Below are positions 9,764 through 27,519 of a stretch of DNA of 44,260 nt, piece by piece; positions within the stretch are counted from its first letter, which is position 1; each line of letters opens with the position of its first letter. A program made the position numbers and the translations under genes. This DNA is from Pseudomonadota bacterium (GTDB taxonomy: Bacteria; Desulfobacterota; S145-22): positions 1 through 44,260 of the forward strand of contig WGDA01000127.1 in NCBI GenBank assembly GCA_015493505.1, written 5' to 3'. Below the pieces are notes generated by a model. It searched no databases and had not been told where the DNA came from. It saw nothing but the letters and a program-made list of their open reading frames with translations.

Positions 9764-9802
9764 CTCTACGCTTTGCACCTTCCACCTAAAACCTTCTCCC
9801 CC
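9764..9802. repeat. Short degenerate 7-nt-type tandem array
   Basis: On the plus strand this reads as pyrimidine-rich units of 7-9 nt, mostly ending in ACC or CCC, for example TTCCACC, TAAAACC. It resembles the longer array at 24255-24415. It sits between the two divergent promoters and is not coding. Confidence 0.5.
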
Positions 9803-22273: not shown

Positions 22274-23587
22274 ATGAAATTTTATATCCATACCTTCGGC
22301 TGCCAGATGAATGTGAACGAATCACAGAAGGTGGCGGCCCTGCTTCGCGGCCGGGGTTTCCAGGAGGCTCCTTCTCCGGAGGAAGCGACCCTGATCCTCG
22401 TGAACACGTGCAGCGTCCGGGAAAAACCAGAAAAAAAGGTCTTCTCGTTCATTGGCAGGGTCAAAACGCCGGGAAAAACCATCGGCGTGATGGGCTGTGT
22501 GGCCCAGCAACACGGACGGGAGCTTCTGAGCAGGGAACCGGCGGTTGATTTCGTGGTGGGGACACAAGCCCTTCACCGGGTTCCGGAAATCGTTTCCCAG
22601 GTTCTCCGAAATAGAAGCAGGATAGCCGCCACCCCCTTTATGGATCCGGAAGATTCCCTGACCATATTTCGTGAACCGCTTGCTGAACCGGGGAGCAGCG
22701 CCTTTGTATCGATTATGCAGGGGTGTGACCGGTTCTGCGCGTATTGCATCGTTCCCTTCGTGCGCGGCCGGGAGCGAAGCCGCCCGTCGAAGGAAATCCT
22801 GAACGAAATACAAGGGCTTGTCGCGAAAGGGGTTACCGAGGTTGTTCTTCTGGGGCAAAATGTGAATCGTTACGGGATGGACCGAAAACAAGATTTGACA
22901 TTTCCAGGCCTTTTACGTAAAATTGACAGGATTTCAGGGATCAGGAGAATACGCTTTGTCACCTCTCACCCCGCGAGTTTGAATGATGAAACAATCCGGC
23001 TTTTCAGGGAACTCAAACACCTGTGTGAAACCATCCATCTGCCTTTTCAGTCGGGCTCAGACAGGATCCTTGAGCTGATGGGAAGGGGATATACGCGGGA
23101 AATGTATCTGGACAGAATTGACCGGCTTCGGGAGGCGTGCCCCGAGATTGCCATATCGGCGGATGTCATGGTGGGCTTCCCGGGAGAGACGGAGAAGGAT
23201 TTTTCGGATACCCTCTCACTGATTGAGAGGGTACGGTTCGATACGCTTTTTTCCTTTCGATTTACCCCGCGACCCATAACGCGGGCGGCCGCTTACCCAA
23301 GACAGGTGGATGAAGATGAAAAGCTGAAGCGCCTCCAGGCCTTACAGGCTTTACAGTCGCGGATCACCCTTGAAAAGAACAGGGAACAGGAAGGAAAAAT
23401 CAAACAGATCCTGGTGGAGAAGCCCAGCCGGTACCCCGAGCAATATATGATGGGACGGGCGAGGGACAACCGCATCGTGCACTTCGAGGCACCTCTGTCA
23501 TTGAAAGGCAGGGAGGTCAAGGTCAGAATCGTCAAGGGATTTCAGAATTCCCTTTTGGGGAAATTGGAGGACGGCCATGTACATTGA
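22274..23587 (+). CDS. miaB: tRNA-2-methylthio-N6-dimethylallyladenosine synthase MiaB
   Basis: A 437-aa radical SAM methylthiotransferase that modifies A37 of tRNAs reading UNN codons. I place the start at ATG 22274 (MKFYIHTFGCQMNVNES); an in-frame GTG lies 9 bp upstream. The N-terminal UPF0004 domain has its three cluster cysteines in FGCQMN, NTCSVRE and MGCVAQQ. The radical SAM cluster is GCDRFCAYCIVPFVRGRE. VLLGQNVNRYG and ADVMVGFPGETE are MiaB signatures. The C-terminal TRAM domain ends the protein. It overlaps the next gene by 11 bp. Confidence 0.95.
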   Translation: MKFYIHTFGCQMNVNESQKVAALLRGRGFQEAPSPEEATLILVNTCSVREKPEKKVFSFIGRVKTPGKTIGVMGCVAQQHGRELLSREPAVDFVVGTQALHRVPEIVSQVLRNRSRIAATPFMDPEDSLTIFREPLAEPGSSAFVSIMQGCDRFCAYCIVPFVRGRERSRPSKEILNEIQGLVAKGVTEVVLLGQNVNRYGMDRKQDLTFPGLLRKIDRISGIRRIRFVTSHPASLNDETIRLFRELKHLCETIHLPFQSGSDRILELMGRGYTREMYLDRIDRLREACPEIAISADVMVGFPGETEKDFSDTLSLIERVRFDTLFSFRFTPRPITRAAAYPRQVDEDEKLKRLQALQALQSRITLEKNREQEGKIKQILVEKPSRYPEQYMMGRARDNRIVHFEAPLSLKGREVKVRIVKGFQNSLLGKLEDGHVH

Positions 23588-24092
23588 AATGGTGGTAGGC
23601 GGATTGACCATTGATCCATTAACGAACTCACCGGTGCTCATCCTGAAAGACCTGAAAGGGGAGCAGACATTACCAATCTGGATAGGGGTTCTCGAAGCGA
23701 CCTCCATTGCTACCGTCCTTGAAAAGATAGATGTGGGGCGGCCCATGACCCATGACCTCCTGAAAACCATTGTTTCAAACCTGGGGGCTCGGATCCTGAG
23801 GGTAGAAATCTGTGATTTGCGGAATAATACCTACTACGCCTTGCTGCATCTTGAGCGGGAGGGGGAATGTATCCAGATAGACTCCCGCCCCAGCGACGCC
23901 ATCGCGATTGCCTTGAGAAGCGGGGCGCCAATTTTTGTGTTAGACGAGGTTCTGGCCAAATCCAGAAAGGAAGGGGAGAACGAAAAGGAGGCCAAAGACA
24001 CCACTCACGCCGTCACCACGAGAGACAAAGAAAAACTGAAAGAAATTCTGCAGGAATTAGATCCGGAGGATTTTGGAAAATATAAAATGTAA
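23577..24092 (+). CDS. Bifunctional nuclease (BFN, DUF151) family protein
   Basis: A 171-aa protein. The DUF151 core occupies about 1-130: MVVGGLTIDPLTNSPVLILKD, LPIWIGVLEATSIA, RPMTHDLLK and DSRPSDAIAIALRSGAPIFV, the last being the family signature. A charged C-terminal extension (130-171) is rich in Lys and Glu. Family members show DNase and RNase activity in plants and are common in bacteria, where the role is poorly known. It overlaps miaB and ends that gene series. Confidence 0.88.
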   Translation: MYIEMVVGGLTIDPLTNSPVLILKDLKGEQTLPIWIGVLEATSIATVLEKIDVGRPMTHDLLKTIVSNLGARILRVEICDLRNNTYYALLHLEREGECIQIDSRPSDAIAIALRSGAPIFVLDEVLAKSRKEGENEKEAKDTTHAVTTRDKEKLKEILQELDPEDFGKYKM

Positions 24093-24254
24093 AAAAGTTG
24101 CATTTTATGGATCACGCAAAGCCCCGGCATTAAAACCTATATGAGCGTGGATTCAACAAGAACATTTCCATCGCTTTTAGTGCCGAGCAAAGCTGCAAAT
24201 AACGCAAAAAATCCATAGATATCAATATGTTGTAGCATTCTCGCGAAACCTGAA

Positions 24255-24415
24255 TTTCCCTTCCACCATTTACCTTTATCTTTGAGCTTTCAGCTCTTAC
24301 TCGTCACTCGTCACTTGTCTCTTATCACTATTCACTACACACTCAGTCCACAGTCCTCAGAACTCAGTCCTTTATCCTTTACCTTTTGCCTTCGACCTTC
24401 TACCTTCCCCTTCGG
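24255..24415. repeat. Degenerate heptamer tandem array in the intergenic space before purL
   Basis: The space 24093-24476 holds no gene. Its second half is a run of roughly 22 units of 6-9 nt, mostly 7: for example ACTCGTC twice at 24299-24312, then ACTTGTC, TCTTATC, ACTATTC, and further on TTCGACC, TTCTACC. Units share length and ending more than exact sequence. The first half (24093-24254) shows nothing recognisable. No intrinsic terminator is seen after the DUF151 gene. Confidence 0.7.
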
Positions 24416-24476
24416 TTATATTGAAAACCCACGCGTAACATGGTAGTTTCCCGCCATACGAAGAGGGGGCGGAGTT

Positions 24477-27455
24477 GTGATTACCCGCGTTGAAGTCGGA
24501 TTCAGAAGAGAGGTTCCTGACGGGCCGGGAGACAGAATCCGGAAGCGTATTGCCGAGGAAATGAGCCTGTCGCTTAAAGAAGTACGGGTCCTTTCCACCT
24601 ACCTGATCAGCATTGATTTATCCCCAACGGATTTTGAACAGATGGTCCGGGAAGCCTTTTACGATCCCGTGGTTCAAGATATCGCCATCGACGCGCCATT
24701 GCGGGATGACGCCGATTTTGTGGTAGAGGTGGGATTTAAGCCCGGCGTCACGGACAATGTGGGAAAAACGGCCCGGCAGGTCATTCAGGATTATCTGGGA
24801 CGTCCCTTGCGTGAGGATGAGGGTGTTTACACGGCTACGACCTACCTGCTTTACGGCGACCTGGGCCGAAATGAATCGGAACAGTTAGCCAGGCGCGTGT
24901 TGGGGAACCCGCTGATCCACCGCTTTTTGATTCTCAGGGGAGAAGAGCTTCCCAGGCACCGCGAGGCGTTACGGCGTTTGCCCGTGGTCAGGCTTGGCGC
25001 GACCGGGGACGTGATGAAATTTGACCTGAACCAGCCTCCGGAGACCCTAATTCAATTGAGCAAGGAGCGGGTATTGGCCCTAAGCCTTCGGGAGATGCAG
25101 GCCATACGGGATGAGTTGAGGCGCCCGGAAGTCCTTGAAGCGCGCCGAAGACATGGCCTGGATCACCGTGTAACGGACGTGGAACTGGAGGCCATCGCCC
25201 AGACGTGGTCGGAACATTGCAAACACAAAATCTTTAATGCAACTATTCGATACCAGGAAGCGGGTGAAGAGGAAGTCATCCATAGCCTGTTCAAGACCTA
25301 TATCCGGGGAACAACGGAGAAAGTGCGGGCGGAGAAAGGGGATCGGGAAATTTGCGTGTCGGTTTTTACCGACAACGCCGGCGTCATCCGTTTTGACGAC
25401 GCGCACAACCTGGTTTTCAAGGTGGAAACCCACAACAGCCCATCGGCGCTGGATCCCTACGGCGGGGCGTTGACGGGGATTGTGGGGGTCAATCGTGACC
25501 CATTCGGAACGGGGCTTGGCGCGCGACTGATTGCCAACACCGATGTTTTCTGTTTTGCCGATCCGAGATACAATAAGCCAATCCCTGAAGGGATTCTGCA
25601 TCCCAAAAAGATTTACGAAGGGGTCCGCGAAGGCGTGGAGCACGGGGGGAACAAGAGCGGTATCCCCACGGTGAACGGGGCGGTGGTGTTCGAGGAACGC
25701 TTTCTGGGACGCCCGCTCGTTTTTTGCGGAACCTGTGGGATTATGCCGACCGAAATCAACGGGCGCCCATCCCACAAAAAATGGATCGATCCGGGGGATC
25801 GGATCGTCATGGTGGGGGGAAGGATTGGCGCCGACGGCATCCACGGGGCGACCTTTTCGTCAGAGGAACTGTCGGAATCCTCGCCTGTTACAGCCGTTCA
25901 GATTGGAGATCCCATTACCCAGAAAAAGATGTTCGACTTCTTGTTAAAGGCCCGAGACAGGGGACTTTACAACGCCATTACGGACAACGGAGCGGGAGGG
26001 CTGTCCTCTTCCGTCGGCGAGATGGCGCAGTTGTCAGGTGGGGCGGAAATGGCGCTTGAAAGGGCTCCTCTCAAATACCCGGGACTCCGGCCGTGGGAAA
26101 TCCTTGTCTCCGAAGCGCAGGAACGAATGACTGTGGCGGTTCCGCCGGAGAAGTTAGATGCGTTTCTGGCCCTGTCGGAGAAGATGGGGGTGGAGTCAAC
26201 CGATCTGGGGCAATTTACCGATTCGGGGGTATTCCACGTAACCTTCGAGGGAAAGACTGTCTGTTATCTCGATATGGATTTTTTCCACAATGGCCTTCCA
26301 CCCATGGAACTGGAGGCCCGTTGGGATCCACCACACATCGAGGTCAGCGACAAGCCCGAAGACGGAGATTTGCGAGAAATCCTCCTGAACCTCATGGCCA
26401 CCCTGAATGTCTGCAGCAAGGAATCAATCATTCGGCAATACGACCACGAGGTTCAGGGGGGGAGCGTGATCAAGCCCCTGATGGGCGAGAAAAACGATGG
26501 CCCTTCCGATGCGGCGGTGCTGCGACCTCTCCTCGGTTCGCTTGAGGGGGTGGTGCTCGCCAACGGGATCTGCCCCAAGTACAGCGATTACGATACCTAC
26601 TGGATGGCGGCCTGTGCCGCGGATGAAGCGGTTCGAAACGCTATCTGCGTTGGATGTGACCCCGACCACATGGCGGCGCTGGACAATTTTTGCTGGTGCG
26701 ATCCCATTGCCTCGGAGACGAATCCGGATGGGGCGTATAAACTGGCCCAGCTCGTTCGCGCCAACAAGGCTCTCTATGATCTTCTTCCCGTTTATGGTGT
26801 CCCGTTGATTTCCGGAAAGGACAGCATGAAAAACGACGTGGTTGTTCAGGGAAAAAAAATTTCCATACCCCCGACGCTGCTCGTCTCCGTCATTGGCGTG
26901 ATACCGGACGCGCGAAAAGCCGTTTCCATGGATTTTAAGCGTCCGGGTGATCTTATCTACATCCTGGGAACGACATCACAGGAGCTTGGCGGTTCGGAGT
27001 ATTACGAATTTTATGGGTGTAAAGGGGGAGAGGTTCCCAGAGTTCACGCGGAGGCAGCACGGAACCGCTATCGCAAGCTCTTTTCAACCATCAGCGCGGG
27101 ACTTGTGCGTTCCTGCCACGACTGTTCGGATGGCGGGCTGGCCGTGGCGCTTGTGGAAAAGGCGCTGGCGGGCGGTTTTGGCGCGGAAATCGATTGCGGG
27201 AAGATCCCGTCGAAAGGGTGTGAGGAATGGGATGAGGTGCTCTTTTCCGAGTCCCAGAGCCGCTTGATCGTAACCGTTGCCCCGGGGGAGGCGGACGCGT
27301 TCGAGCGTATTTTCGCCGACGAGACACTGGCACGCATCGGAACCGTGCGAGGGGATCGGGAAATTGTTTTTTGGGAAGACCAGGGTGGGAAGAGACTCTT
27401 CCGCCTGACGTGTGATGAGGCGAAGCGGGCCTGGCAGGCCCCCTTGAATTTTTGA
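24477..27455 (+). CDS. purL: Phosphoribosylformylglycinamidine synthase, PurS-PurL fusion
   Basis: A 992-aa enzyme that converts FGAR to FGAM with ATP and glutamine-derived ammonia. The GTG start at 24477 follows GGGGGCGGAG. Residues 1-80 and 81-160 are two PurS-like ferredoxin-fold units (MITRVEVGFRREVPDGPGD; VVEVGFKPGVTDNVGKTARQ). The synthetase follows: TWSEHCKHKIFNA, ETHNSPSALDPYGGA, and a second half with GKDSMKNDVVV and HDCSDGGLAVALVEKALAGG. It stops without the glutaminase domain of E. coli PurL (1295 aa), so a separate PurQ must exist elsewhere. It is separated from hemC by a 61-bp gap. Confidence 0.94.
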   Translation: MITRVEVGFRREVPDGPGDRIRKRIAEEMSLSLKEVRVLSTYLISIDLSPTDFEQMVREAFYDPVVQDIAIDAPLRDDADFVVEVGFKPGVTDNVGKTARQVIQDYLGRPLREDEGVYTATTYLLYGDLGRNESEQLARRVLGNPLIHRFLILRGEELPRHREALRRLPVVRLGATGDVMKFDLNQPPETLIQLSKERVLALSLREMQAIRDELRRPEVLEARRRHGLDHRVTDVELEAIAQTWSEHCKHKIFNATIRYQEAGEEEVIHSLFKTYIRGTTEKVRAEKGDREICVSVFTDNAGVIRFDDAHNLVFKVETHNSPSALDPYGGALTGIVGVNRDPFGTGLGARLIANTDVFCFADPRYNKPIPEGILHPKKIYEGVREGVEHGGNKSGIPTVNGAVVFEERFLGRPLVFCGTCGIMPTEINGRPSHKKWIDPGDRIVMVGGRIGADGIHGATFSSEELSESSPVTAVQIGDPITQKKMFDFLLKARDRGLYNAITDNGAGGLSSSVGEMAQLSGGAEMALERAPLKYPGLRPWEILVSEAQERMTVAVPPEKLDAFLALSEKMGVESTDLGQFTDSGVFHVTFEGKTVCYLDMDFFHNGLPPMELEARWDPPHIEVSDKPEDGDLREILLNLMATLNVCSKESIIRQYDHEVQGGSVIKPLMGEKNDGPSDAAVLRPLLGSLEGVVLANGICPKYSDYDTYWMAACAADEAVRNAICVGCDPDHMAALDNFCWCDPIASETNPDGAYKLAQLVRANKALYDLLPVYGVPLISGKDSMKNDVVVQGKKISIPPTLLVSVIGVIPDARKAVSMDFKRPGDLIYILGTTSQELGGSEYYEFYGCKGGEVPRVHAEAARNRYRKLFSTISAGLVRSCHDCSDGGLAVALVEKALAGGFGAEIDCGKIPSKGCEEWDEVLFSESQSRLIVTVAPGEADAFERIFADETLARIGTVRGDREIVFWEDQGGKRLFRLTCDEAKRAWQAPLNF

Positions 27456-27465
27456 GATTGAAACC

Positions 27466-27519
27466 AACGAGATAAACTAACTAAACGAAATAAACGAGAC
27501 AGACGGAACAAAACAGATG
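27466..27519. repeat. Nonamer degenerate tandem array running into the hemC start
   Basis: Six consecutive 9-nt units fill the gap between purL and hemC: AACGAGATA, AACTAACTA, then AACGAAATA, AACGAGACA, and two more, the last (27511-27519) including the ATG of hemC. The spacing is exact. No standard Shine-Dalgarno is present, only GGA at 27505-27507 within the array. Confidence 0.65.

Follow-up and report, generated by a model that had tools for sequence, protein, structure and literature searches.

The array of degenerate heptamers that lies upstream of purL in the stretch analysed here (44,260 nucleotides, hereafter the window) belongs to a class of period-7 arrays that is widespread in the intergenic DNA of bacteria, and in the loci compared such arrays are concentrated, as inverted matching pairs, around genes for the 23S rRNA intervening sequence protein (PF05635, a four-helix bundle; hereafter IVP). 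We give about an even chance to the reading that the purL array is a lineage-specific relic, a stranded arm, of a hairpin-type small-gene element. The features of the window discussed below are summarized in Table 1.

Table 1. Positions in the window of the array, its look-alikes and the neighbouring features
Feature	Position	Strand	Remark
Short heptamer look-alike	9764..9802	+	weak taken singly
Bifunctional nuclease domain gene (bfn, PF02577)	23577..24092	+	upstream neighbour
Extra DNA relative to syntenic relatives	24093..24412	.	boundaries approximate
Dispersed piece TTTTATGGATCACGCAAAG	24103..24121	+	many copies in genome
59-bp dispersed element, terminal inverted repeats GGCATTAAAACC ... 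GCTTTTAGTGCC	24126..24184	+	three further copies in genome
Degenerate heptamer array	24265..24407	+	~20 units, pyrimidine-rich on + strand, one orientation
Promoter-like conserved block TTGAAAACC-N-GTAACATGGTAGTTT	24421..24449	+	upstream of purL in four genomes
purL	24477..27455	+
Degenerate array of 9-nt units, purL-hemC spacer	27466..27519 (to about 27536)	.

The array upstream of purL and its locus

Across 24251-24420 (170 bp), the identity between positions seven nucleotides apart was 0.613, against 0.305 (sd 0.034) in dinucleotide-preserving shuffles, whose maximum was 0.43 and none of which (0/5000) reached the observed value. In 1000/1000 shuffles the best of any lag from 2 to 29 also stayed below it. 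The other multiples of seven gave 0.506 (lag-14), 0.450 (lag-21) and 0.401 (lag-28), and the remaining lags gave about 0.2-0.36, near the background. The heptamer array described in the earlier note is therefore real, and shuffled sequence has no such period. The top-scoring segment, which defines the array in Table 1, is composed mostly of 7-nt units, and its identity at successive multiples of seven nucleotides was 0.68, 0.53, 0.48, 0.42 and 0.38, reaching background near 63 nt. Neighbouring units are thus more alike than distant ones, suggesting local duplication of units followed by mutation rather than decay from one ancestral word. The successive words along the array are CCTTT, GAGCTTT, CACTCGT, CACTATT, CAGTCCT, CCTTTTG and CCTTCTA; the description of the units as ending in TC or CC holds roughly, but the array drifts through several words. 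Because the copies are too divergent, TRF splits the array into short pieces (fragments of 2-5 copies only), and the near-perfect copies on which SSR detection relies are not present.

The units run head to tail, without a constant repeat or spacers, and the array is non-coding, so that the earlier view of it as neither a CRISPR, a microsatellite nor a gene was borne out. A structured leader RNA or riboswitch was also rejected: the array has no Rfam match, its predicted RNA fold is unremarkable on both strands (z +1.04 and -0.39), and the tract is missing from relatives. The idea that the heptamers place stop codons in every frame was likewise discarded (131 versus 124, sd 10, and 139 versus 120, sd 17, for column-permuted words). 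A sigma-70 promoter scan inside the array returned nothing, and a plasmid collection searched with the array as a DNA query gave no match.

G005 and G003 (sister genus) have the same gene order as the window (rimO-like gene, bfn, purL, hemC), with a bfn-purL gap of 145 bp and 136 bp, respectively, versus 385 bp here. The array is missing at the purL site of both genomes, showing a presence/absence polymorphism instead of base-for-base conservation. In G001, from the same genus, the gene before purL is a different one (apparently eno), and no array is present. Dispersed repeats fill the extra DNA, indicating that the bfn-purL intergenic space is a lineage-specific patchwork. One of them, the 59-bp element, is MITE/REP-like and was seen in four copies with the inverted ends GGCA(C/T)TAAAACC ... 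GGTTTTAGTGCC; the other copies (G000 C137:5762-5854, C42:12537-12635 and C42:15287-15348) show 81-86% identity. Elsewhere (L058:5811, L067:12496, L190:12394 and others), CGCAAAG repeats come after the piece TTTTATGGATCACGCAAAG, and an inverted CTTTGCG run often lies beyond them; at contigs C27 and C122 the piece stands directly before a GxxExxY gene.

The array ends 14 bp upstream of the promoter-like block, which is conserved upstream of purL in all four genomes compared (also written TTGAAAACC-N-GAACATGATAGCGTT). This position would suit a functional tract or RNA controlling purL, which we regard as very improbable, since the array is missing from relatives that keep the block, has neither structure nor Rfam match, and resembles arrays adjoining unrelated genes; a purL-specific function is unlikely. 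That the array might be an artefact of a metagenome-assembled genome, here a draft of 174 contigs with about 4% contamination, is hardly credible, as the window consists of a single contig, the flanks are conserved, and numerous independent genomes, some of them in one contig, have like arrays, as do complete plasmids.

Two look-alikes had been proposed in the window. The array of 9-nt units in the purL-hemC interval is genuine (identity at lag 9 of 0.62 versus 0.38, p=0.0006); an array of 9-nt units, differing in sequence and length, occupies the same site in another genus (G003; L023:1360-1409), and the array is shorter in G005 and absent in G004. The short heptamer tract near the start of the window is weak by itself (0.56 versus 0.35, p=0.017).

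Period-7 arrays in the genome

We scanned 1.08 Mb of the 2.8-Mb source genome, a sample partly chosen by BLAST, and repeated the key within-genome word test on its unbiased part. As the leading array class in the intergenic DNA, period 7 came ahead of all other periods. In the 1.08 Mb, 25 period-7 arrays scored at least 12 and 14 scored at least 16, versus 2 and 0 in three shuffled copies summed (significance was taken from simple shuffles, and several of the genomes used in this study are drafts). The arrays are mostly intergenic, with a mean coding overlap of 0.19 in DNA of which ORFs cover about 93%. These counts agree with the earlier suggestion that many such arrays occupy the intergenic DNA of this genome.

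The arrays of the source genome have words in common (best 21-mer match 18.4 versus 15.7, sd 0.36, for column-permuted versions, in the unbiased part). Furthermore, the purL array and an array at C27:5447-5576 show the same word order over about 115 bp (52 versus 34, sd 5.7, in block-shuffled controls; 3/500), suggesting that at least some arrays were copied from one another. Across genera the array words mostly differ. A single phylum-wide word list was rejected because an unbiased sample gave little or no sign of one (11.73 versus 11.44, sd 0.20), and the resemblance of words within the phylum is therefore largely due to BLAST selection. As separate observations, the 23-bp phrase CTCAGTCCTCANYACTCAGTCCT is exact in seven genomes of five families (L252-L259; the reversed control, in one genome) and forms an inverted pair beside a gene end in three loci, and other Desulfobacterota have 8-nt arrays of GGAAGGCT/GGAGGCTA words in a heptamer-like style (L121:3365-3449 and L028:4500-4534).

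The simplest account of such arrays is plain slippage, by which a heptamer SSR is born in place, slippage favours 7-nt units, mutation degrades them, and IVP genes tolerate or enter the result. In most bacterial genomes, heptamers are described as the most frequent class of long repeats, and contact by the polymerase was proposed as an explanation (Mrazek 2007, as cited in PMC4679880; PMC4692102); their excess was attributed to polymerase slippage (PMC4679880). The fading of similarity with unit distance in the purL array fits this account, as it fits the slipped synthesis with strong divergence proposed earlier; the shared words, the one shared word order and the inverted arms at IVP genes described below are left unexplained by it. 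In particular, slippage does not predict words common to distant loci. We consider it an unlikely, if serious, explanation.

An inverted copy was present within 250 bp for 10/27 arrays in an unbiased Desulfobacterota sample of purL flanks and for 3/20 in the source genome, the other 17/27 and 17/20 having no inverted partner. The purL array itself belongs with the latter (best match within 250 bp 20, versus 18 in shuffles). Since the inverted copies suggested hairpin elements, two small gene families were tested.

Inverted arms at IVP genes

Around 30 PF05635 loci, which were the best-scoring ones, we found 48 period-7 arrays in 89.6 kb (53.6 per 100 kb), distributed over 21/30 loci. The baselines were 2.5 per 100 kb in purL flanks and 0 in 90.5 kb around 30 ParE-toxin genes, so that heptamer arrays are about 21-fold enriched around IVP genes. 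Flanks of 250 bp that match in inverted orientation were observed at 19/21 IVP loci, 0/22 ParE loci (Fisher 3e-10) and 1/315 random positions, and the nearest arms mostly lie 17-70 bp from the IVP ORF. The words of the arms vary from locus to locus, yet agree within a locus: over 34 loci, an arm scored a mean of 47 against its own partner versus 18 against arms of other loci, and its partner was the best of all in 28/34. The RNA of one unit (L280, in G001) is predicted to form an extended stem that holds the ORF in its loop (z -7.3). Slippage does not predict that inverted matching arms should occur at IVP but not ParE genes, although the majority of arrays do not stand beside an IVP gene, as it would lead us to expect. 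In fact, most arrays in the genomes examined are far from any IVP gene, and gene-less arrays are the common state.

In the source genome, the sole IVP gene (C20:14116-14421) lies between inverted arrays of 8-nt units, and 5/5 IVP loci inspected in the family of this genome have arrays or array-like arms on both sides. A six-frame search in which stops were read through found this one IVP in the genome and no PF05635 ORF in the window. When compared with the IVP arms from its family, the purL array gave word matches no better than those of column-permuted versions.

The second family, GxxExxY (PF13366/TIGR04256; L290-L319), was examined in the same way. Two of the stronger heptamer arrays of the source genome adjoin such genes (C27 and C122), and inverted flanks, rich in 9-nt arrays and CGCAAAG pairs instead of heptamers, were present at 18/23 of the loci. 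As a partner of heptamer arrays this family was rejected, being only about 2.5-fold enriched and having repeats of its own of 8-9 nt; its units are possibly a sister element class.

Arms of this kind were also found outside the phylum. Among plasmid relatives of the source genome's IVP (from cyanobacteria, Azospirillum and Gemmatirosa), 11/13 have period-7 arrays and 11/13 have inverted flanks. The background in three of those plasmids was 11 arrays in 150 kb, with inverted flanks at 2/54 other small genes, the stronger of which, annotated as hypothetical, is PF05635 itself (E 8e-22). Three cyanobacterial plasmid IVP genes (L403, L410 and L412) are situated within CRISPR-Cas operons, twice between cas6 and cas4 and once between cas10 and cmr3, with heptamer arms at 2/3. 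In Coxiella burnetii, the 23S intervening sequence carries a PF05635-family ORF and complementary ends, and three tandem heptamers, whose number varies among strains, precede the ORF (PMC4990558). In Xanthomonas, heptamer arrays of the word GGGAATC form about 70 inverted pairs per genome, described without association with mobile elements (PMC4692102). Both of these published observations fit the reading of heptamer arrays as arms of IVP units.

Comparison of related genomes revealed that a unit may be there, missing or reversed at a given site. The IVP unit at L261 (G043), 474 bp including the arms and the gene, is missing in the congeners G138, G164 and G078, whose empty sites hold a short pair of inverted heptamers, ATCGTAAATCGTA-C-TTACGAGTAACG. 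A fourth congener, G110, has the unit reversed between the same flanks (L325, C159:19715-20200), which suggests recombination between its inverted arms. At the L265 site, the counterpart of the IVP unit of G058 in the congener G021 is a GxxExxY gene flanked by inverted 9-nt repeats; G058 retains just one 9-nt arm beside the IVP unit, which is a direct example of a solo relic arm. The IVP unit at L274 is absent in G140, where arrays are missing altogether. Empty and flipped sites are not predicted by slippage.

The same sites raise the alternative of a landing pad, in which heptamer arrays able to form hairpins are already in place before IVP or GxxExxY units enter at the hairpin tips. Such a sequence of events is suggested by the inverted heptamer pair kept at the G043-type empty sites, by the L265 site, where G058 and G021 have different genes (IVP and GxxExxY, respectively), and by the fact that 23S intervening sequences replace tetraloops (PMC4990558). 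However, the short inverted pair could equally be an excision footprint, and G140 has no arrays at all at the other site. We hold this order of events to be rather improbable.

The purL array as a putative stranded arm, and related systems

The element class that we propose would comprise a small IVP ORF between two inverted arms of degenerate 7-nt (sometimes 8-nt) units. Arm units may multiply by local duplication while the hairpin arms are copied; arms may then be lost or separated, and a solo arm would drift until its words form a gradient. In the case of purL, the unit would have been inserted, or have accumulated, beside other dispersed repeats and just upstream of the promoter-like block. 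The purL array has no IVP gene, no inverted partner and no word match to the arms of its family, and it is therefore not a complete element; because it has neither an ORF nor a second arm, we infer that it is a stranded arm at the level of the class. This assignment rests on its period, its intergenic insertion, the dispersal of such arrays in the genome and the solo arms demonstrated elsewhere. The stranded-arm, slippage and landing-pad readings partly overlap. Of the two guesses offered earlier, slipped synthesis and an unrecognised element, the latter proved the better half, in view of the association of inverted arms with IVP genes. More broadly, it is plausible, at slightly under an even chance, that many bacterial heptamer arrays are arms or stranded arms of a cross-phylum IVP/S23 hairpin class, with a sister class that has GxxExxY nuclease genes between inverted flanks rich in repeats of 8-9 nt.

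Several known systems resemble parts of this picture. Heptanucleotide SSRs and cyanobacterial STRR are, like the purL array, intergenic 7-nt tandem units with degenerate variants and genome-wide enrichment (PMC4679880, PMC4692102), whereas the purL array runs through several words in succession and has degenerated beyond what standard SSR detection can pick up; the published accounts in these two papers present the repeats without a tie to IVP genes. The 23S intervening sequences share with IVP units the PF05635 protein, complementary termini and an ORF in the loop (PMC4990558), but the IVP units sit between protein genes and both of their arms are long heptamer arrays. The GGGAATC repeats of Xanthomonas likewise form heptamer arrays in inverted pairs whose length varies by species (PMC4692102), although they use one dominant G-rich word. 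MITEs, REPs and REPINs are dispersed, intergenic and often hairpin-forming, and include gene-less relatives of gene-bearing units; here, in contrast, no fixed terminal sequence is used, and each arm is a tandem array whose words are specific to the locus. We know of no transposase for the heptamer/IVP elements.

The excess of heptamers in bacteria is already known. In open-access papers we found no earlier report that heptamer arrays are linked in general to free-standing IVP genes, and with respect to that literature the link may be new. To our knowledge, the dominance of 7-nt units among bacterial tandem repeats, on record since 2007, is without a tested cause, and no function is known for the four-helix-bundle proteins that are free-standing. 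If the arrays are IVP hairpin arms, the question of the 7-nt unit would become testable, since arms, protein and empty sites are all defined, and these proteins would gain a context resembling that of 23S rRNA intervening sequences. Arms that match each other in words specific to their locus would imply copying between arms or selection on their pairing, an unusual mode of repeat evolution.
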